Shown: piece after piece, positions 2,397 through 43,177 of the stretch
Position numbering within the stretch: position 1 is the stretch's first letter
Layout: each line of letters starts with the position of its first letter
Assembly (NCBI GenBank): GCA_938048755.1
Contig: CALIUG010000108.1
Span: 1 to 43,177 of the forward strand
Reading direction: 5' to 3'
DNA from: an uncultured Alphaproteobacteria bacterium
Lineage (GTDB): Bacteria; Pseudomonadota; Alphaproteobacteria; SP197
DNA: 43,177 bases
Program-made: the position numbers and the translations under genes
The notes under the pieces: generated by a model
Told to the model about the DNA's origin: nothing
What the model saw: the letters and a program-made list of their open reading frames with translations, nothing else
The model's database searches: none

Positions 2397-4799
2397 TCAC
2401 CCGCGTAATTCACCGCCGGTCTGCTTGGCAACGGCAGCAACGACCTTGTCGGAAAGGGCTTCGAGTTCCTCGTCGGTCAGGGTCGCCTTGACAGGCTGAA
2501 TCGTGACACCGATGGCGATGGACTTGCGCCCTACCCCAAGGCGTTCGCCCTCAAACACGTCAAACAGGCTGACCTCACGGATCAAGGCACGATCCGCACC
2601 CTTGGCCGCACGCAGCAGTTTCTCTGCAGGGACGTCGGAATCCACGACAAAGGCGAAGTCTCGCCGGACCGCCTGGTACGGCGAAACGTCGAGCCTGGCA
2701 CGTGCAATGGCGCGCGATTTCGGTTCCGGCACCGATTCGAGAGCAATCTCGAACGCGGCCACGGGACCGCTGGCATCGAGGGCAGACACCACCTGGGGGT
2801 GGAGTTCGCCGAACACGGCAAGAGATTTCGGACCAAGCCGCAGGACACCGGAACGGCCCGGGTGGAACCAGTCAGGCGCATCGGTCGTGGTCTGGAGATT
2901 CTCGACCGGAGCACCAATGGCTTCCAGGACGGCCATGGCATCTGCCTTGGCATCGAAGACATCGACCGCGCGCTCCTTCTGCGACCAGTGGCGCGCGCCG
3001 GAACGACCCACGCGCATGCCGGTAACGGTAGTGGTCTGCCCCTCCGGCTCCGTGCTGGCGTAGGCCGGGCCAATCTCGAAGAGACCGAAATCAGCCATGC
3101 CGCGGGCCTGATTGCGGGCCACGGCTTCCAGCAGCCCGGGCAACACCGAGGGGCGCATCATGTCCATGTCCGAGGAAATCGGATTGACCAGGGTAAGGCC
3201 CTGATTGCCGCCACCGAACATGCGGGCATGGTTCGAGGAAACGAAGGAATAGGTAACGGCTTCGTTGAGTCCGCGACTGGCCAGGGTGCGGCGCGACCAG
3301 CGCACACGCTTCTGCCTGATGCTGAGGACGGGACGGGCCACGGGTGCCTCGCGCGGCAGCGAGACCATCGGGACTTCATCGAAACCGTTGATGCGCAGGA
3401 CTTCCTCGATGACGTCGGCTTCACAACCCATGTCGTGACGCCAGGTCGGCACCGTAACGGACCAGAGATCATCGCCGGCATCGCTGACGCCGAAACCGAG
3501 GTCGCCCAGGATCGATTCCGCACGTGCCTTGTCGATGGCAATACCGCCCAATTCAAGGATGCGGGAGGGACGCACCGACATGGTTTTCTGTTCGGTCGGC
3601 ACCGTGCCTGCCGTGACGACCTCGCTCGGCTCACCGCCGCAGAGTTCGAGCACCAGCCGGGTCGCCATTTCCATGCCTTCGGGCGCAAAGGCATTGTCGA
3701 TACCACGTTCGAAGCGCTGGCGTGCGTCGGTTACCAGTTCCAGTTTGCGACCGGTTGCCGCCGTGCGAATGGGGTCGAAGAGTGCGATCTCCATGAATCC
3801 GTTGACCGTGTTCTCGTCGGCACCGGTGGACTCGCCACCGACCACGCCGCCCAGACCCAGCATGCCGGAATCATCAAAGATCACCGTCATGGCGTCATCG
3901 GTCTCATAGGACTTATCGTTCAGCGCATCGAAGGTCTCGCCGGCTTCGGCAATACGGGCGCCGATGGTGCCCTTGACCTTGTCAGCGTCATAGATGTGCG
4001 CCGGCCGGCCCAGATCCATGGTGAGCCAGTTGGTGATGTCGACCAGCGCCGAAATCGGGCGCAGACCCACAGCCTTCAGCTTCTGTTGCATCCAGGCCGG
4101 GCTGGCGCCGTTCGTGAGGCCCTTGAAGTAACGCCCGATGAACGCCGGGCAGGCATCACGGGTCGCCTCATCGAAACGCAGCTCGATATCGATGGGGCTC
4201 TTGCAGGTCCCGGGTACCGGCGAGGTATCAAGCGACTTGAGTGTGCCCATGCCGGCGGCAGCCAGGTCACGGGCGATGCCGCGCACGCTGAAGCAGTCGC
4301 CGCGATCCGGGGTGAGACCGATTTCGATGATCGGATCATCCAGGCCCGAGATCGCCGCAAAGGATGCGCCCACGGGCGTGTCTTCGGGCAGATCGATAAT
4401 GCCGTCATGCTCGTCGCTGAGACCCATTTCGCGCTCAGAACAGAGCATGCCACGGCTGGCGACGCCTCGGATTTCGCTTTCCTTGAGGTCGAGGCCGGTG
4501 CCGGGCACATGCGTTCCCGAAGGCGCGAAGACACCCTTCATGCCGGTGCGCGCATTGGGCGCGCCACACACGACCTGCACTTCACCACTGCCGGTCTCGA
4601 CGATGCAGACACGCAGCCGGTCGGCATTGGGGTGCTGTTCGGCCTTGACCACATAACCCACCGTGAACGGCGCAAGTTCGGCGGCCCGGTCCTCGACGCC
4701 TTCGACCTCCAGGCCGATACGGTTGAGGCAGGCCACGATCTCATCGAGCGTGGCTTCGGTTTCAAGATGGCGTTTGAGCCAGTCCAGAGTGATTTTCAT
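2397..4799 (-). CDS. pheT: Phenylalanine--tRNA ligase beta subunit
   Basis: 800 aa, [37 protein letters not shown]..., tRNA-binding, B5 and FDX-ACB-like regions; adjacent to pheS. Confidence 0.97.
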
Positions 4800-7273: not shown

Positions 7274-9211
7274 TCAGGCCGGCGGCTGCGATTCGTTCGT
7301 AAGTGTATGAATGGCGTCGGCAAGTGCAAGGGATTGCTGATCCTTGCTGCCCAAACGACGGATGGAAACAGTGCGCTCTTCGGCCTCGCGTTTGCCGACG
7401 GCCAGGATCACGGGGATCTTGCCCACAGAGTGCTGACGCACCTTGTAGCTGATCTTGTCGGCTGCCGTATCGAGCAATCCGACCAGACCGGCGCCAGCCA
7501 GTTCCTCATGAACTTCAGCCGCGTAGTCATCGGCCTCGTTCGTCACAGTCGCAACGACGTATTGCGTCGGCGCCAGCCAGAGCGGGAAGTGACCGGCATA
7601 ATGTTCGATCAGAACGGCCAAAAACCGCTCAAATGAGCCAAGAATCGCGCGATGCAGCATCACGGGACGCTTGCGGTCACCGCTTTCGGCGACATAGGTC
7701 GCATCGAGTCGTTCCGGCAGAACGAAGTCGACCTGCAGGGTGCCGCATTGCCAATCTCGGCCAATGGCATCGCGCAGAACGAACTCGAGCTTGGGACCAT
7801 AAAAGGCGCCCTCTCCGGGATTGAGCTCCAGGTCGAGGTTCGCCGCCTCTGCCGCAGCCTTGAGAGCGTCCTCTGCCTGATCCCAGACCGCATCCTCGCC
7901 GGCGCGTACTTCGGGACGATCAGAAAACTTCACGACAAAGTCTTCAAAGCCCAGATCGCTGTAAATCGAGGACAACAGCTCACAAAAACGAATCGTCTCT
8001 GACGTGATCTGGTCTTCGGTGCAGAAGATATGGGCGTCGTCCTGGGTGAAGGCGCGCACGCGCATCAGACCATGGAGCGCACCCGACGGCTCATAACGCA
8101 GGCATGATCCAAACTCGGCCATGCGCAGCGGCAGGTCGCGGTAACTCTTGGTGCCCTGCCGGAAGATCTGCACGTGACAGGGACAGTTCATCGGCTTCAT
8201 AGCCCAGATGCGATCATCTTCTGTCTGGGCCGTGAACATGTGCTCACGGAACTTCTCCCAATGACCCGACGCCTCCCAGAGAGAGCGATCCACCATCTGG
8301 GGCGTGTTCACCTCCTGATAGTGTTCGGCCTCAAGGCGGCGGCGGACATAGTTCCGCACCGTACGATAGAGACGCCAGCCCTTGTCGTGCCAGAAGACCG
8401 AACCCACGGCTTCCTCCTGGAAATGGAACAGGTCCATTTCACGACCCAGCTTGCGGTGATCGCGCTTCTCTGCCTCTTCGAGGCGTGTGAGGTGATCCTT
8501 GAGCTGATCCTTGTTGAGCCAGGCCGTGCCGTAGACGCGCTGGAGCATCTCGTTGCGGCTGTCGCCACGCCAGTAAGCGCCAGCCAACTTCATGAGCTTG
8601 AACGCCTTGGGGAGCTTGCCTGTCGAGGGTAAATGCGGGCCGCGGCAGAGGTCGATCCAGTTGCCCTGACGATAAAGCGTGATCGTCTGGTCAGCAGCCA
8701 GATCGCGGATGATCTCGGATTTGTAATCTTCGCCAATCGATTCGAAGAACGCTGCAGCCTCGTCGCGATCCCAGACTTCGCGATCGATGGGTTCGTCACG
8801 GTCGATGATCTCGGCCATGCGTTTTTCCATCTTTTCGAGGTCTTCGGGCGTAAACGGCTCCGAGCGCGAAAAGTCGTAATAGAATCCGTCCTCGATCACC
8901 GGGCCGATCGTGACCTGAATGTCGGGGAAGAGTTCCTTGGCTGCCTGCGCCAGAACATGCGCGGCGTCGTGACACACCAGTTCCAGGGCATCGGGTGACT
9001 TCGACGTGACGATTTCCAGTGCGGCGTCATGGTCGATCGCGCGCTTGAGATCGCGAAGTTCGCCATCGACCTTGACCGCAAGCGCAGCCTTGGCAAGGCC
9101 GGCGCCAATCGAAGCCGCGATCTCGGCACCGGTGGTCGGCGCGTCATAGTCACGCACGGAACCATCGGGGAGAGTAATCGCCACACGGGCGGCTTGCGCT
9201 TGGGCGCTCAT
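7274..9211 (-). CDS. thrS: Threonine--tRNA ligase
   Basis: Start [35 protein letters not shown] and catalytic domains ([57 protein letters not shown]). Confidence 0.97.
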
Positions 9212-9284
9212 GATCTGTCCACTCCAGCAAAGGATTTGCTGCCCGTTTCGGGCAGCGCGCAACCTAGTAGCGCGCACCGTGAAG

Positions 9285-10211
9285 TCAAGAGAACGCTAAA
9301 CGTGCGGCATGTGCGACCTCATCAACGCTGAGATCGGCAAGGTTGTATCGCGACAAGACGGTGACGGATTGTCCACGCGGCGCTGTCAACGCGGGATCCG
9401 AACCAGACGAAAACAGCGTCAGCGACGTGCACCCTGCGGTCGCCGCCAGATGCATCGGGCCGGTGTCGTTGCCGATTGCCAGTTCGGCACGCCGCCCCAG
9501 GGCGGCAATCTGCTCAAAACTGGTCCGGCCGCATAGATTGACGGAGTCTCTTCTGACCGAAGCGATCGCATCGAGCACATCGGCTTCTGCAGGCCCGCCA
9601 ATCAACACCACGGCCAGATTCATGCCTTTCAGGCGATGGCAAAGTTCACCATAACGCTCGGCAGGCCAGCGTTTTTCCGGGCGATGCGGCGCGCTGCCAG
9701 GAACAATCAGAGCAAAACGATCCGGCAGATCAAAAGCACTGAGATCGGCATCGATCATGGAGAGATCAGGCGGTGGTACATCATCAATACCGGCCATGTG
9801 AAGCTGATCAGCCTGACGCTCGACCGTGTGCAGACGATCCCGATCCGGATTGGCATGGGGATGCGAGCAGCCTCTGGCGATGCCGGACCATTCCGGCCTG
9901 GGACGTTTGAACAGGCGAAGATAGCTGCTGGAACGATCAGAGGTCTGGAGGTCGTAGACCCTGTCGAAGGCAGTCTCGTTCAGTTCTTTGGAAAGGGAAC
10001 GAACCCTGGCGAACTGCCACCATTTCGGTTTGTCATCCAGCCAGATCTCGTCGAACCAGCCGCCGGCGCGTGCCAGATCTTCGTAAGGAACCGTCGTCAG
10101 GAGAACGATATGGGCATCGCGATGATGGTTCCGAATGGCCTGGAACGGGCCCGACGAAAGGACAAAATCGCCCAGAGCGCCAAGGCGAATCACAAGGATT
10201 CGCGTGCTCAT
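9285..10211 (-). CDS. Glycosyltransferase family 9 (heptosyltransferase-like)
   Basis: [40 protein letters not shown]...; C-terminal [21 protein letters not shown] motif of GT9 enzymes. Confidence 0.88.
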
Positions 10212-36350: not shown

Positions 36351-36821
36351 ATGGACCCGGCCCTAAACAACCTAACGTGTACTCTGGACTCGGTCGAGGC
36401 GACGCGAGCTCTGGGCGCAACAATTGCGGGAGTCGCGCAACAGGGCGATACGATCGCCCTGCGAGGAGATCTCGGTGCAGGAAAGACGAGCCTGGCCCAG
36501 GGCTTTGTGTGCGCCAGACTTGGCGATGTGGAGGTCACCAGCCCGACCTTCACCCTGGTTCAGACCTATGGCGAAGGAGACCAGGAGATCTGGCACGTCG
36601 ATCTCTACCGGATAGAGGAAGAAGCAGAGCTGGAAGAACTGGGTCTGGAGGAGGCTTTGGGCGTCGCGCTGGTGTTGTTTGAGTGGCCCGAGCGCATGGA
36701 AGAAGACCTGCCGGACGATCGCCTGGATATCCGGCTAGAGCATGACAGGTGCGGAGGACGCCATGCCGTTCTCACGCCGCGGGGAACCTGGGTTGACCGG
36801 CGACTGGATCTGACTTCATGA
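36351..36821 (+). CDS. tsaE: tRNA threonylcarbamoyladenosine biosynthesis ATPase TsaE
   Basis: ALRGDLGAGKTSLAQGFV, VTSPTFTLVQTYGEG, IWHVDLYRIEEEAELEELGLEE, VLFEWPERM. Confidence 0.96.
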   Translation: MDPALNNLTCTLDSVEATRALGATIAGVAQQGDTIALRGDLGAGKTSLAQGFVCARLGDVEVTSPTFTLVQTYGEGDQEIWHVDLYRIEEEAELEELGLEEALGVALVLFEWPERMEEDLPDDRLDIRLEHDRCGGRHAVLTPRGTWVDRRLDLTS

Positions 36822-37804
36822 CCGGCAAGCGCGAGCAAAAGATCACAGACTTCCTGGACAAGGCCGGCTGGTCCGACGCTGACAGAAAGCCGCTTGCCGG
36901 AGATGCATCGTTTCGTCGTTATGACCGACTCAAGGGGCCGCATGGCGATGCGGTACTGATGGATGCGCCGCCGCCGGAAGAAGACATCCGACCGTTCGTG
37001 CAAGTCGCACACATTCTGACGGATGCCGGACTGGCCGCACCTGAGATTCTGGCCGAAGATTCAGAAGCGGGCCTTCTGCTGCTCGAAGATCTGGGTGATG
37101 CCATCTACACCCGCGTTCTGGCCAACGGCGAAGACGAACAGAAGCTCTATCTGCCCGCCATCGATGCTCTGGTCGCGCTGCATCAGGCGGGCACGCCCGG
37201 CGACCTGCCCGCCTATGACGACGATCTGCTCCTGTTCGAGGCGTCGCTGCTGACCGACTGGTTCATGCCCCTGGCAGGCCTGGAACTCTCTGATCAGGGC
37301 CGGGATGACTACGTGAACCTGTGGCGAAATCTCCTACCGCTTGCACGGCAGGTGCCCGATGGCATCGTTTTGCGCGATTATCATGCCGACAATCTGCTTT
37401 GGCTTCCCGAACGCCATGGAATTCAGCGCGTCGGCCAACTGGATTTTCAGGATGCCGTGATCGGACCGGTCACCTATGACCTGGTCTCGCTGCTGGAAGA
37501 TGCCAGACGTGATGTCGCCCCCGATACGGTTGCGTCAGCCATCGACCACTATCTGGAACAGTTCCCCGGCATTGATCGCGACACTTTCCTGGCGTCCTAT
37601 GCCGTCATGGGCGCGCAACGCAATCTGAAGATCCTGGGCATTTTCTGCCGGCTTCTCACACGTGATGGCAAGGCGGGATATCAGGACTACATGCCACGGG
37701 TATGGGGGCATGTTGCCACAGACCTTCAACACCCTGCCCTGGCGCAACTTGAAGTCTGGCTGGACCGATGGATTCCAGCCAGCTTCCGGACAAGAGCGGC
37801 ATGA
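36818..37804 (+). CDS. amgK: Aminoglycoside-phosphotransferase-fold sugar kinase, probably N-acetylmuramate/N-acetylglucosamine kinase AmgK
   Basis: LAGDASFRRYDRL, VLRDYHADNLLWLPERHGIQRVGQLDFQDAVIGPVTYDLVSLLEDARRDV; directly upstream of the murU-like gene. Confidence 0.88.
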   Translation: MTGKREQKITDFLDKAGWSDADRKPLAGDASFRRYDRLKGPHGDAVLMDAPPPEEDIRPFVQVAHILTDAGLAAPEILAEDSEAGLLLLEDLGDAIYTRVLANGEDEQKLYLPAIDALVALHQAGTPGDLPAYDDDLLLFEASLLTDWFMPLAGLELSDQGRDDYVNLWRNLLPLARQVPDGIVLRDYHADNLLWLPERHGIQRVGQLDFQDAVIGPVTYDLVSLLEDARRDVAPDTVASAIDHYLEQFPGIDRDTFLASYAVMGAQRNLKILGIFCRLLTRDGKAGYQDYMPRVWGHVATDLQHPALAQLEVWLDRWIPASFRTRAA

Positions 37805-38508
37805 AGGAACTGCACTACGGCATGGTGCTGGCTGCAGGACGTGGCGAACGCATGCGCCCGATCTCCGGTACAATTCCAAAGCCGCTGATCGAGATTGGTG
37901 GGCGTTCCATGCTCGACCGCATGCTTGACCGCTTGGAGCGACTGGACAGCGTGGTGGTGAACGCATGGCATCTTCCCGAAAAGATTGCTGCTGCTGTTTC
38001 TGCCCGCCAGAAGCCGGATGTCATTTTGTTGCGTGAGGAAGTACTGCTCGACACGGGAGGCGGCGTAGCGAATGCGCTGCCGCATCTGGGTTCGGATGTC
38101 TTTGCGGTGGCCAATGGCGACGTGCTTCTGCACGAACCCCGCAAGCCAGCACTCTCGGCACTCGCTGAGGCGTGGGATGATAGTGCCATGGATGCTCTCC
38201 TGCTGCTGGTCGCGCGCGAAAGCGCCGGCGGTTTTCGGGGTGCTGGTGATTTCTTCATCGATACTGCCGGACGTCTTGAACGGCGCGGCGATGCCACCAG
38301 CGCACCCTATGTCTATGCCAGTCTCCAGCTGGTCCATCCTCGCCTGCTGGCCGATGCACCCGAGAGTGCCTTTTCGTTCAACCTGCTGTGGGACCGTGCG
38401 CTGGCTCAGGGCCGCCTGTTTGGCGTGGTCCATGACGGGGGTTGGTACACCGTCGACACACCAGCCAACATCGAAGCCGCCGAAGCGTGGCTGACCGAGA
38501 ATCCATGA
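37801..38508 (+). CDS. murU: Nucleotidyltransferase, probably N-acetylmuramate-1-phosphate uridylyltransferase MurU
   Basis: MVLAAGRGERMRPISGTIPKPLIEIGGRSMLDRMLDRL; 4-nt overlap with the amgK stop. Confidence 0.88.
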   Translation: MKELHYGMVLAAGRGERMRPISGTIPKPLIEIGGRSMLDRMLDRLERLDSVVVNAWHLPEKIAAAVSARQKPDVILLREEVLLDTGGGVANALPHLGSDVFAVANGDVLLHEPRKPALSALAEAWDDSAMDALLLLVARESAGGFRGAGDFFIDTAGRLERRGDATSAPYVYASLQLVHPRLLADAPESAFSFNLLWDRALAQGRLFGVVHDGGWYTVDTPANIEAAEAWLTENP

Positions 38509-41500
38509 GCGGCGTCTTCACCATTCCGGCCGGAACATCCTTTGTTGATGCGCTTGCTGCCGGTCTGATCGAGCGATTCGGTGACCCGCCTGAGGCACTG
38601 GCCAACACCCTGATTCTGCTTCCGACGCGCCGGTCGGTGCGCAGCTTGCGCGATGCCTTTCTGCGGCAGTCCGGCGGGCGGGCCATGATTCTGCCGGTGA
38701 TGCGTCCCATCGGTGATGTCGATGAAGACGAGATGACTCTGGCGCTGAGCGCGGATTTCGAAGGAGAGGCCGACCTTCCACCGACCATCGGCGGCCTGAG
38801 ACGTCAGCTTCTGCTGGCCCGACGCATCCGCGACGACCCTGCATACGGTGTGACCGGGGACGAGCAGGCGGCCCAGCTTGCTGCGGCGCTGGCGAGCTTC
38901 ATCGATGAAGTCGATACCGCCGAAGCGGACCTGGGACGCCTGGAAACCCTCGTTGACGATGCGGGGTTGTCGGAGCACTGGCAGACAACCCTGCGCTTCC
39001 TTAACGGCGTCCTGGATGCCTGGCACCAGACACTCGCGCGCGAAGACCGCATCGATCCTGCTGCCCGCAGGCGTCGGTTGCTCGACAACCTGGAACAGCG
39101 ATGGCGTGACGACCCACCCCTGGGGCCGGTGATTGCGGCAGGCTCGACCGGCACCATACCTGCGACAGCACGTCTGTTGGCGCGTGTGCGTGAACTTCCC
39201 CAGGGCATGGTGATCCTGCCAGGACTCGATCAGGACCTTGAAGACGACGCCTGGGAATCGATTGCACCAAGCCACCCCCAGCACGCCCTGAAAACCCTGC
39301 TTGAGCACTTCGAGATAGATCGCGCGGCCGTGCAGCCGTGGCCTGTACCGGGATGGGCGCACTTGCCCGTGGGGTCGCCAGATCGCCATCGGCTGTTCTC
39401 GGACGTCATGCGGCCGGCACAAGCAACAGCGTCATGGTCGCAATTGGACGATCCGCCCGAATCCGCGCTCGAGGGCCTGGCCTTCACGGCGTGTGCCAAT
39501 CCACGTGAGGAAGCCCAGGTTGCCGCGCTGCGTATGCGTTTCGAACTGGAAACGCCGGAACGCACCGTCGCGCTGGTGACGCGCGACCGCGATCTGGCGC
39601 GCAGGGTTGCCGCGGATCTGCGTCGCTGGTCCATCGACGTCGACGATTCGGCTGGCCAGGTCCTGGCTACAACATCGGCCGGCGTCTTCTTCCGGCTTGT
39701 AGCAACGGCCCTGGGAACCAACTGGGCCCCTGTTCCCTTGCTTGCTCTTCTGAAGCATCCGTTTACGCGGCTGGGACGTGAAGCAGGCGACGTCCGCTCC
39801 CTTGTGAGACGGCTGGAACTGCTTGCCTTGCGAGGGCCCAGGCCGGCCCCCGGAATTGAAGGCCTGCGCCATGCGCTGGGCAGCCGGCACATCGATCATG
39901 AGCTCGATGCCCTGTTGTCGGATCTGGGAGCCGCCACGGCAGAGCTGGATGCGCTGATGCGTGCGCCCAAGGCGCCCTTGGCACAGTTGGTCGAGCATCA
40001 TGTTCAGACACTCGAGAATCTTGCCCGAACCAGGCCGGATGACGCCAGCCCGGTCTGGGAGAACGAAGACGGAGAAGCGCTGCACGACTTTGTCACCGAG
40101 TTGATCGGCGACGCCGAGGCACTGGGTTTTGTCGAAACCGGCGCCTATCCGGCCTTGCTCGATACCCTGCTGGCTGGCCATGTGGTCCGACCCAGATATG
40201 GCAGCCATCCCAGGGCGTTCATCTGGGGCCCGCTGGAAGCGCGCATGCAGCATGCAGATTGCGTCATTCTGGGTGGTCTGGTTGAGGGCAACTGGCCGCC
40301 GGAACCGCCGAGCGACCCATGGATGAGCCGGCCCATGCGCGCGAAGTTCGGGCTGGCCACGCCGGAACAGCGCATTGGACTTGCCGCGCACGACTTTGTT
40401 CAGGCCGCCATGGCCCGTTCCGTGTTGCTGCTCTATCCCGAACGTGCTGCTGGTGCGCCAACGGTACCAGCGCGCTGGCTTGTGCGTCTGCAGGCCTTTC
40501 TTGATGCCCGTAACCTGGGCAGCCAACCACGCATCGAAGCGCGTAGGTGGCAACACTGGCAAAGCACGATGGACCGGCCGTCAAACATTGAGCCTGCCGT
40601 CGCGCCTGAGCCAAGGCCACCGCTGGATGTGCGCCCGGACGGGCTGTCGGTTACCCAGGTAGAGGTGTGGCAGCGCGACCCCTATGCGATCTACGCCCGC
40701 CGCATTCTCAAGCTTTCTCCACTGGACGACCTGGACGAAGATGCCGATGCGGCCAACCGCGGCAGCTTCATCCATGATGCACTGGAGCGCTTTGTTGTCG
40801 CGCATCCGGTCACCCTGCCGCACGACGCCCTCGAGCAGCTGCTTGCCATGGGTCGGGACGTTCTGGGAACGATGATCGAACGCCCTTCGGTCGCCACGTT
40901 CTGGTGGCGGCGGTTCGAGCGTATCGCTGCCTGGTTCGTTGAGGAGGAACACAAGCGACGCAAGGGTCTGAGCGCAGTCCACGCCGAGACCACCGCTCAG
41001 CTTTCCCTCCCCCATGGCCCCCGCGGCAGTTTCACGCTTAGCGCCAAGGCGGATCGGTTGGAAGTGGATCACGATGGCCGTGTTGCCGTGATCGACTACA
41101 AGACCGGCGCGGTGCCCCCTGGAAAGGCGGTCGAGGCTGGTGCGGCACCCCAACTGCCGCTGGAAGCCGCCATGGTTGCCGCAGGAATGTACCCCGGCAT
41201 TCCCGAGACCGATGTCACGGGCCTGGAATACTGGGAGCTCAAGGGCGGGGAGCCGGCCGCCGCAGTCAAACGTATCAAGGCGGACCCTTCCGAGGTTGCC
41301 GGACGGGCGCTGGAAGGTCTGGGAAGGCTGGTTACCGCATTTTCCAATGAAAACACGCCCTATCGCGACCACCCCGGTGGCCAGCCGATCGGCCGGTTCG
41401 ATGCGTTTGTGGATGTTGCCCGCACGAATGAATGGCGCCTGGGCTGGAAGACCATGCTGGATGATGTCGCCCCAAGCGACGTACCGAACGGCGTTACGCG

Positions 41501-43177
41501 CCGGATCCGCACGCAGAACGACAAACAACAGGCGATGTCGAATCCCGAGCAGACAGTCTGGGTCGCGGCATCGGCAGGCACGGGAAAAACCAAGGTCCTG
41601 ACCGATCGCGTTCTGCGGCTGATGCTCTCGGGAAGTGAACTATCAAGAATCCTGTGCCTGACGTTCACCCGTGCGGCATCGGCTGAAATGGCCAATCGCA
41701 TCCGTCAGGAACTTGCCGGCTGGGTGTCCATGACCAACGACGACCTGGTCGCCGATCTGACCGCGCTTCAGGGACGCGCGCCCAACGCGGACGAGATGAT
41801 GCGCGCAAGACAGTTATTTGCCGAAGTCCTGGATGCGCCAGGTGGCCTGCAGATCGCCACCATTCACAGCTTCTGCCAGTCCATTCTGGGCCGGTTTCCC
41901 CTTGAGGCCGGCATTGCGCCCCATTTCAGTCTGATTGAGGAGCGTGGGCGAAGCGAACTCCTGAACGAAGCTCGCGACCGTGTCATTGGCCGGATCGCCG
42001 CCGGCAGAGCGCCCGAACTGGAAGAGCCGCTGAACCGCCTGATCGTCCTTGCAGGAGAGTCGCGCGCCAGTGAACTGCTCGATGAAATCTGTGCGGCATC
42101 GGGGCGCCTTGACCTGATGCTTGAACGTTTCGAAACCCTGGATCTCGCCCTGCAGGAACTTGCCGCAGGCCTGCAACTCGATCCGGACCAATCGCCGCAG
42201 AAATTGGTGCGTGCCGCCTGCCTGGATCACGCGTTTGATCGCGACGGACTGACGCAGGCCAGCACCTGTCTGGCAGAAGGCAGCAAGACCGATACCGCGA
42301 AGGCCGAATCCATCAGCCGGTTCCTTGCTGCCGACGAGGCAAGCCGCGTTGCACTGTTTGATGCCTATTGTTCAGCCTTTCTCAAAGCCGACAAGCGACC
42401 GGGCACACAGGCCCTGGCAACCAAGGCCGTGCGCGAGGCGCATCCCGACGTCTTGGATATCCTCAATCGGGAACAGGCGCGGCTGGATGCGCTCCATGAA
42501 ACGCTGCGACGGCATGCGACGTATCAGCGCACACACACGATCCTGACCCTGGGCAATGCGCTGGTGCAGGAGTTCCGACGCCTGAAGAACGACCGGGCGG
42601 TGCTCGACTACGACGACCTCATCGAAAAGACGCGAAGCCTGCTGGCCATGCCCGACATCGCTCCCTGGGTCCTGTTCAAGCTGGATGGCGGCCTGGACCA
42701 TGTCCTGGTTGATGAAGCACAGGACACCAACCCCAATCAGTGGGCTGTCGTCATCACGTTGATCCGCGAGTTTTTCGAAGGTGAAGGCGCCCGTGACCTC
42801 CATCGCACCGTCTTTGTTGTCGGAGACGAGAAACAGTCGATCTACAGCTTTCAGGGAGCCGATCTGGAAGCACTTCAACAGGTCCGCTCGGGGCTCGAGT
42901 TTCTTGTTCAGCCAACGGAATGGTATTCGGACAGCCTGGACCTTTCCTATCGATCCGTTCCTGCCGTGCTGGAAACAGTCGACGCGGTTTTTGCTCCCCA
43001 GGAGGCCGCAGCCGGAGTCGCTTTTGGCGGCCAACGTATCGAACATCAATCGTTCCGGTCCGAAGATGGCGGGCTCGTCGAGCTTTGGCCCCTCTTGCGC
43101 GAGGAACCAGGCGAACCCGAAGATCCCTGGACAGCGTGTCTCAGCGATGCCCAGCCCCAGGATCGGCACAATCGGTT
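38505..43177 (+). CDS. Double-strand break repair helicase-nuclease: AddB and AddA in one continuous reading frame (3' end outside window)
   Basis: ATG 38505 (MSGVFTIPAGTSFVDALAAGLIERF...) runs through the AddB nuclease (GSFIHDALERF, VAVIDYKTG, QLPLEAA) into AddA (NDKQQAMSNPEQTVWVAASAGTGKTKVLTDRVLRLML, LVDEAQDTNPNQW, VVGDEKQSIYSFQGAD). Both domains read in the frame with codon starts at positions divisible by 3. The supplied ORF track lists no + ORF starting here, as expected if there is no stop before the window end. Confidence 0.88.
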   Translation, partial: MSGVFTIPAGTSFVDALAAGLIERFGDPPEALANTLILLPTRRSVRSLRDAFLRQSGGRAMILPVMRPIGDVDEDEMTLALSADFEGEADLPPTIGGLRRQLLLARRIRDDPAYGVTGDEQAAQLAAALASFIDEVDTAEADLGRLETLVDDAGLSEHWQTTLRFLNGVLDAWHQTLAREDRIDPAARRRRLLDNLEQRWRDDPPLGPVIAAGSTGTIPATARLLARVRELPQGMVILPGLDQDLEDDAWESIAPSHPQHALKTLLEHFEIDRAAVQPWPVPGWAHLPVGSPDRHRLFSDVMRPAQATASWSQLDDPPESALEGLAFTACANPREEAQVAALRMRFELETPERTVALVTRDRDLARRVAADLRRWSIDVDDSAGQVLATTSAGVFFRLVATALGTNWAPVPLLALLKHPFTRLGREAGDVRSLVRRLELLALRGPRPAPGIEGLRHALGSRHIDHELDALLSDLGAATAELDALMRAPKAPLAQLVEHHVQTLENLARTRPDDASPVWENEDGEALHDFVTELIGDAEALGFVETGAYPALLDTLLAGHVVRPRYGSHPRAFIWGPLEARMQHADCVILGGLVEGNWPPEPPSDPWMSRPMRAKFGLATPEQRIGLAAHDFVQAAMARSVLLLYPERAAGAPTVPARWLVRLQAFLDARNLGSQPRIEARRWQHWQSTMDRPSNIEPAVAPEPRPPLDVRPDGLSVTQVEVWQRDPYAIYARRILKLSPLDDLDEDADAANRGSFIHDALERFVVAHPVTLPHDALEQLLAMGRDVLGTMIERPSVATFWWRRFERIAAWFVEEEHKRRKGLSAVHAETTAQLSLPHGPRGSFTLSAKADRLEVDHDGRVAVIDYKTGAVPPGKAVEAGAAPQLPLEAAMVAAGMYPGIPETDVTGLEYWELKGGEPAAAVKRIKADPSEVAGRALEGLGRLVTAFSNENTPYRDHPGGQPIGRFDAFVDVARTNEWRLGWKTMLDDVAPSDVPNGVTRRIRTQNDKQQAMSNPEQTVWVAASAGTGKTKVLTDRVLRLMLSGSELSRILCLTFTRAASAEMANRIRQELAGWVSMTNDDLVADLTALQGRAPNADEMMRARQLFAEVLDAPGGLQIATIHSFCQSILGRFPLEAGIAPHFSLIEERGRSELLNEARDRVIGRIAAGRAPELEEPLNRLIVLAGESRASELLDEICAASGRLDLMLERFETLDLALQELAAGLQLDPDQSPQKLVRAACLDHAFDRDGLTQASTCLAEGSKTDTAKAESISRFLAADEASRVALFDAYCSAFLKADKRPGTQALATKAVREAHPDVLDILNREQARLDALHETLRRHATYQRTHTILTLGNALVQEFRRLKNDRAVLDYDDLIEKTRSLLAMPDIAPWVLFKLDGGLDHVLVDEAQDTNPNQWAVVITLIREFFEGEGARDLHRTVFVVGDEKQSIYSFQGADLEALQQVRSGLEFLVQPTEWYSDSLDLSYRSVPAVLETVDAVFAPQEAAAGVAFGGQRIEHQSFRSEDGGLVELWPLLREEPGEPEDPWTACLSDAQPQDRHNR

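Follow-up and report, generated by a model that had tools for sequence, protein, structure and literature searches.

AddAB is a helicase-nuclease that processes broken DNA ends for repair. The AddB subunit of the Bacillus enzyme carries an Fe-S cluster as well as a Walker A box. In alphaproteobacteria addB and addA are normally adjacent, separate genes, as the original prediction for this locus had assumed and as two sets of outgroup genomes bear out. At the locus described here, from an uncultured alphaproteobacterium, the two are read as one, and the same arrangement is found in every relative sampled from its order in which the genes are present.

A single reading frame for AddB and AddA

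The stretch of DNA analysed, referred to below as the window, is 43,177 nucleotides long and constitutes a complete contig (C108, positions 1-43177) of a 4.16 Mb draft genome in 301 contigs (G000, 92.7% completeness); the fused open reading frame is thus cut by a contig end. The ORF list and translation give a frame of 1557 codons that begins at the addB ATG at 38505, overlapping the stop of a murU-like gene (which ends at 38508), and that is free of stops to 43175, the end of the last full codon, as had been claimed. A second reading of 41400-41600 gave the same junction as before. The genes upstream (36351-38508, Table 1) make up the usual alphaproteobacterial neighbourhood.

Residues 4-978 of the predicted protein match TIGR02786 (AddB_alphas) with 949.7 bits against a cut-off of 486.5, and Pfam places a PD-(D/E)XK nuclease domain (PDDEXK_1) at residues 714-953, with a UvrD helicase domain beginning at residue 1005. 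Residues 1006-1549 correspond to positions 1-546 of TIGR02784 (AddA_alphas; 575 bits). The original prediction had proposed extending the frame into the next contig; the remainder of AddA lies at the beginning of contig C270 of the same genome (C270:16-1764, TIGR02784 positions 555-1138, 550 bits). Taken alone, each of the two halves stays below the family cut-off of 860.75, while the complete relative G003 reaches 1143.9 on the same chain as AddB. The ends of C108 and C270 have the sequence CGGTT in common, and a putative join at this point carries the frame on in register (...HNR-LAAGIAEK...) to a stop. The joined gene would encode 1557 + 605 = 2162 amino acids, which agrees with the forecast of more than 1550 residues at the window edge and probably more than 2000 in all.

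The SF1 helicase motifs of AddA are divided between the contigs, with motifs I, II, III and a IV-like motif on C108 and motifs V and VI on C270, where the RecB-type nuclease motif DYKT of AddA also lies, at residue 535; AddB has its own DYKT at residue 864. The complete relatives have the same motif set with small variations. In two of the order's genomes (G013 and G011) the AddA nuclease motif was missed by a simple pattern and may have a variant spelling. The AddB part was correctly described as having neither a Walker A box nor a regular cysteine set for an Fe-S cluster. We considered this as a possible trait of the fusion and rejected it, since four outgroup AddBs have the same absence at those positions.

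Table 1. Features of the fused addBA gene and its upstream neighbours (window positions unless another contig is named)
Feature	Position	Strand	Basis or remark
tsaE-like gene, upstream	36351-36821	+	ORF list; name from sequence resemblance only
amgK-like phosphotransferase gene, upstream	36818-37804	+	ORF list; PF01636
murU-like nucleotidyltransferase gene, upstream	ends 38508	+	ORF list; PF12804/PF00483
AddB part of fused ORF, residues 1-980	38505-41444	+	TIGR02786, PDDEXK_1
AddB nuclease motif DYKT, residues 864-867	41094-41105	+	invariant in fused family
Linker WKTMLDDVAPSDVPNGVTRRIRTQNDK, 27 residues	41445-41525	+	after NEWRLG, before invariant Gln
Internal ATG, proposed AddA start, not conserved	41454-41456	+	Shine-Dalgarno energy -4.2
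Invariant Gln where AddA homology begins, probable Q motif	41526-41528	+	alignment column Q208, invariant in fused family
AddA part, N-terminal half, residues 1008-1557, runs off contig	41526-43175	+	TIGR02784 positions 1-546; rest at G000:C270:16-1764
Internal ATG after invariant Gln, poor start candidate	41535-41537	+	Shine-Dalgarno energy -0.1
AddA Walker A AGTGKT, residues 1024-1029	41574-41591	+	motif search
AddA motif II VDEAQD, residues 1402-1407	42708-42725	+	motif search

Conservation of the fusion across the order

Our sample of the order comprised 16 genomes of one family and five genera. The junction lies in one uninterrupted frame in all 12 genomes that have addBA, at 42-91% identity to the window, and the fused gene is kept in all five genera; fusion is the rule across the order's addBA carriers. 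A stop at the junction in close relatives, which had been named beforehand as contrary evidence, occurs in none of the 12. A gene-length open frame is present in eight. Six of these (G003, G005, G008, G014, G012 and G015) have a recognisable AddB N-terminus and encode complete proteins of 2147-2172 amino acids, the fusions of matching length that were to be looked for in related genomes; in the other two, G013 and G011, the start is harder to place and the length from the aligned N-terminus is 2127 and 2120 amino acids, respectively. The copies in G009 and G010, like that in the window's genome, are truncated by contig ends. The closest relative, G002 (91% identical), is open at the junction, but its frame changes twice further on, within the N-terminal half of AddA (L046, about 8842-9474), which could be either assembly error or early decay.

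Separate genes outside the order and probable origin of the fusion

The first outgroup set covered 19 genomes of 19 families (22 loci). In none of them do addB and addA share a frame, and the start of addA overlaps the stop of addB by four bases (ATGA, GTGA or TTGA) in 14 of them; for one, G029, no addA start was found near the addB stop. The second set took in outgroups with suspiciously long open frames, chosen among the matches listed, and the frames again differed in 24 of the 24 loci in which both genes were detected (some of these being repeats). The long frames themselves (in G043, G101, G246, G145, G750 and others) were tried as further fusions and rejected, AddB and AddA being in different frames in each.

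When the class was surveyed, 337 of 385 genomes matched, and among the matches listed a stop-free match to the whole junction came only from this order. A draw of 399 genomes from the phylum, overlapping in part with the class draw, gave no further fusion among the matches listed. Both surveys rest on the best-listed matches, so that a fused gene whose linker differs greatly might escape them. Eight genomes of three small orders that are near in the AddA tree likewise gave no stop-free junction match. Six genomes outside the order give a match over the entire junction in which addB and addA are still divided by stops, a single one in G121, G127, G231, G297 and G305 and three in G183. These same-frame alphaproteobacterial loci (L070, L071, L072, L073 with the three stops, L074 and L075) are places where losing the stop alone could produce a fusion.

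A single state change is enough to account for the fused sequences on the AddA tree, the branch that unites them having modest support (82/40). The most economical history has the genes fusing once, on the order's stem, through a frame change combined with loss of the addB stop. Because the outgroup genes are mostly out of frame with each other, a frame change was probably needed besides stop loss, and plain stop loss is the less likely origin.

The best explanation of these data, and in our judgement very probably the right one, is that addB and addA were joined as a single gene in the stem lineage of this alphaproteobacterial order and that the gene now specifies a single-chain AddBA with the ordinary work of AddAB. 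The covalent fusion originally proposed is supported as the best reading by the frame kept in 12 genomes and by the separate genes of the outgroups.

The linker and its candidate internal starts

The linker is probably derived from the former AddB tail and the AddA N-terminus. Measured from the end of AddB homology to the invariant Gln, it has 27-33 residues, and in the 12 genomes its length differs by whole codons only. Between the members of two close pairs (G000-G002 and G012-G015) it has 10.8 synonymous versus 9.2 nonsynonymous substitutions, a pattern that departs from equal rates per site (Fisher p = 0.002, with rounded counts and these two pairs) and is that of a translated sequence. 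Synonymous change in the linker reaches saturation in more distant pairs, where no other part of the protein varies as much, as expected for a flexible tether. The Gln that follows the linker is the probable SF1 Q motif, an assignment we infer, given a one-residue offset from UvrD in the alignments.

The strongest competing explanation is that AddA is also, or even mainly, made separately from a start in the linker, to yield a classical heterodimer besides some fusion protein. The ATG at 41454 put forward as such a start does have a Shine-Dalgarno energy of -4.2, and better candidates are found elsewhere, namely an ATG in G012 and G015 (-6.0 and -6.5 kcal/mol) and a GTG in G013 (-7.4), so that an extra separate AddA is possible in those three. 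However, no internal start is conserved in position among the fused genes compared. An ATG at the position of 41454 is shared only by the window and G002; G014 and G010 have one nearby and the others have none. The second start suggested, the ATG at 41535, is more widespread among the fused genes and is a poor candidate, since it lies downstream of the invariant Gln and has almost no Shine-Dalgarno energy (-0.1). The sole candidate in G011 is likewise the ATG after the Gln, and G008 offers only a weak GTG. The median energy of 16 outgroup addA starts is -7.35 kcal/mol; the internal ATGs of the fused genes, taken generally, have a median of about -3.4. Separate synthesis, moreover, would not require the full frame through the linker that is kept in 12 genomes, and on balance we regard it as unlikely.

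Loss of addBA and the presence of RecBCD

Four species of the window's own genus (G001, G004, G006 and G007) are without addBA. In G007, the one genome on which the family models were run, recC, recB and recD exceed the NCBIfam cut-offs; the recC, recB and recD of G004 are about 86% identical to these, and G001 and G006 have frames of recC-recB-recD kind at matching places. The recC-recB-recD genes are situated at a locus other than the addBA site (L050:5301-13887, L052:5113-13699, L051 and L053). At the former addBA site of G007 (L065:3632-4777) the murU-like gene (3632-4375) is followed directly by a thioredoxin gene (4457-4777), and a thioredoxin gene is also found downstream of addBA in the genome of the window (L049 1831-2232). 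Replacement between AddAB and RecBCD has been described among bacteria (PMC1193525). 

Two genes past addBA (L049:2337-3956 on C270 of the window's genome; also L046 and L039) lies a gene that encodes a glutamine-synthetase catalytic domain (PF00120) and, in the same frame, gives a weak match to a helix-turn-helix family (PF13560, 20.6 bits against a cut-off of 27). The neighbour in G007 (L065:4756-6126) has the catalytic domain only.

The four species without addBA, with RecBCD confirmed in one of them, and the two frame changes of G002 could be taken to mean that the gene is decaying and that fusion was a step towards its loss. Against this, the gene is present in all five genera with its motifs intact, and the comparison of the window's genome with G002 (dN/dS 0.05/0.80 in AddB and 0.04/1.21 in AddA) indicates strong purifying selection on both parts; decay thus seems very improbable. 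The weakest explanation, that assembly or sequencing removed the stop between two ordinary genes of a 301-contig draft in which the gene is divided between two contigs, has next to no chance of being correct, since a junction that stays open in 12 genomes, spread over five genera and at 42-91% identity, excludes chance or a local miscall, the 11 relatives include a genome of two contigs and 100% completeness (G008), and a single base call would not join genes that in the outgroups are mostly out of frame.

Predicted action of the single chain

If fusion on the order's stem is accepted, the product would be one chain of about 2,160 residues consisting of AddB, a linker of about 27-33 residues and AddA, which would fold as a tethered AddAB helicase-nuclease. 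It would presumably be active, and neither cleaved nor split by internal initiation. With the helicase motifs and both nuclease motifs intact, its action is expected to be that of alphaproteobacterial AddAB, in which AddA supplies the one active motor and there are two nucleases, and the tethered enzyme would, like the two-subunit form, resect DNA ends so that RecA-dependent repair can follow. The main effect of the tether may be to fix a 1:1 ratio that was earlier favoured by translational coupling at the ATGA overlap. A bolder version, for which we see a small but real chance, is that the tether alters the working of the enzyme and not just its stoichiometry, through a non-dissociating motor with two nucleases and an altered assembly or Chi-type regulation, and that this was selected across the order.

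AddBA is built from known parts. What appears to be new is their union in a single chain that has become fixed in an order, and a search of the open-licence literature yielded no report of an AddB-AddA fusion. The order would then have seen two evolutionary steps, fusion of a coupled pair and later, in part of one genus, its loss with RecBCD instead. As a natural single-chain form of a much-studied two-subunit repair machine, AddBA would make it possible to test within one polypeptide what each nuclease does, as well as stoichiometry and dissociation, and it may aid structural and single-molecule work.

Comparison with known systems

Judged by its sequence, AddBA belongs to the alphaproteobacterial AddAB enzymes as a fused variant and not as a classical heterodimer, its two parts being read in one frame in 12 genomes where the class has two separate subunits. 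Both parts match the alphaproteobacterial families TIGR02786 and TIGR02784 over their full length, gene order and neighbourhood are alike (a murU-like gene before, thioredoxin after), and the two enzymes share an AddB without Walker A box or Fe-S cysteines. They differ in that AddBA is one chain with a linker, whereas alphaproteobacterial AddAB is encoded by two genes, mostly in different frames with the four-base overlap. In the solved Bacillus AddAB (e.g., 3U4Q/3U44 chain A) the subunits are separate in place of the single chain, and AddA aligns with the AddA part of AddBA; no solved relative of the AddB part was found by sequence search. RecBCD has the same role as AddBA and occurs in members of the genus that have no fused gene; it is composed of three subunits and encoded at a different locus.
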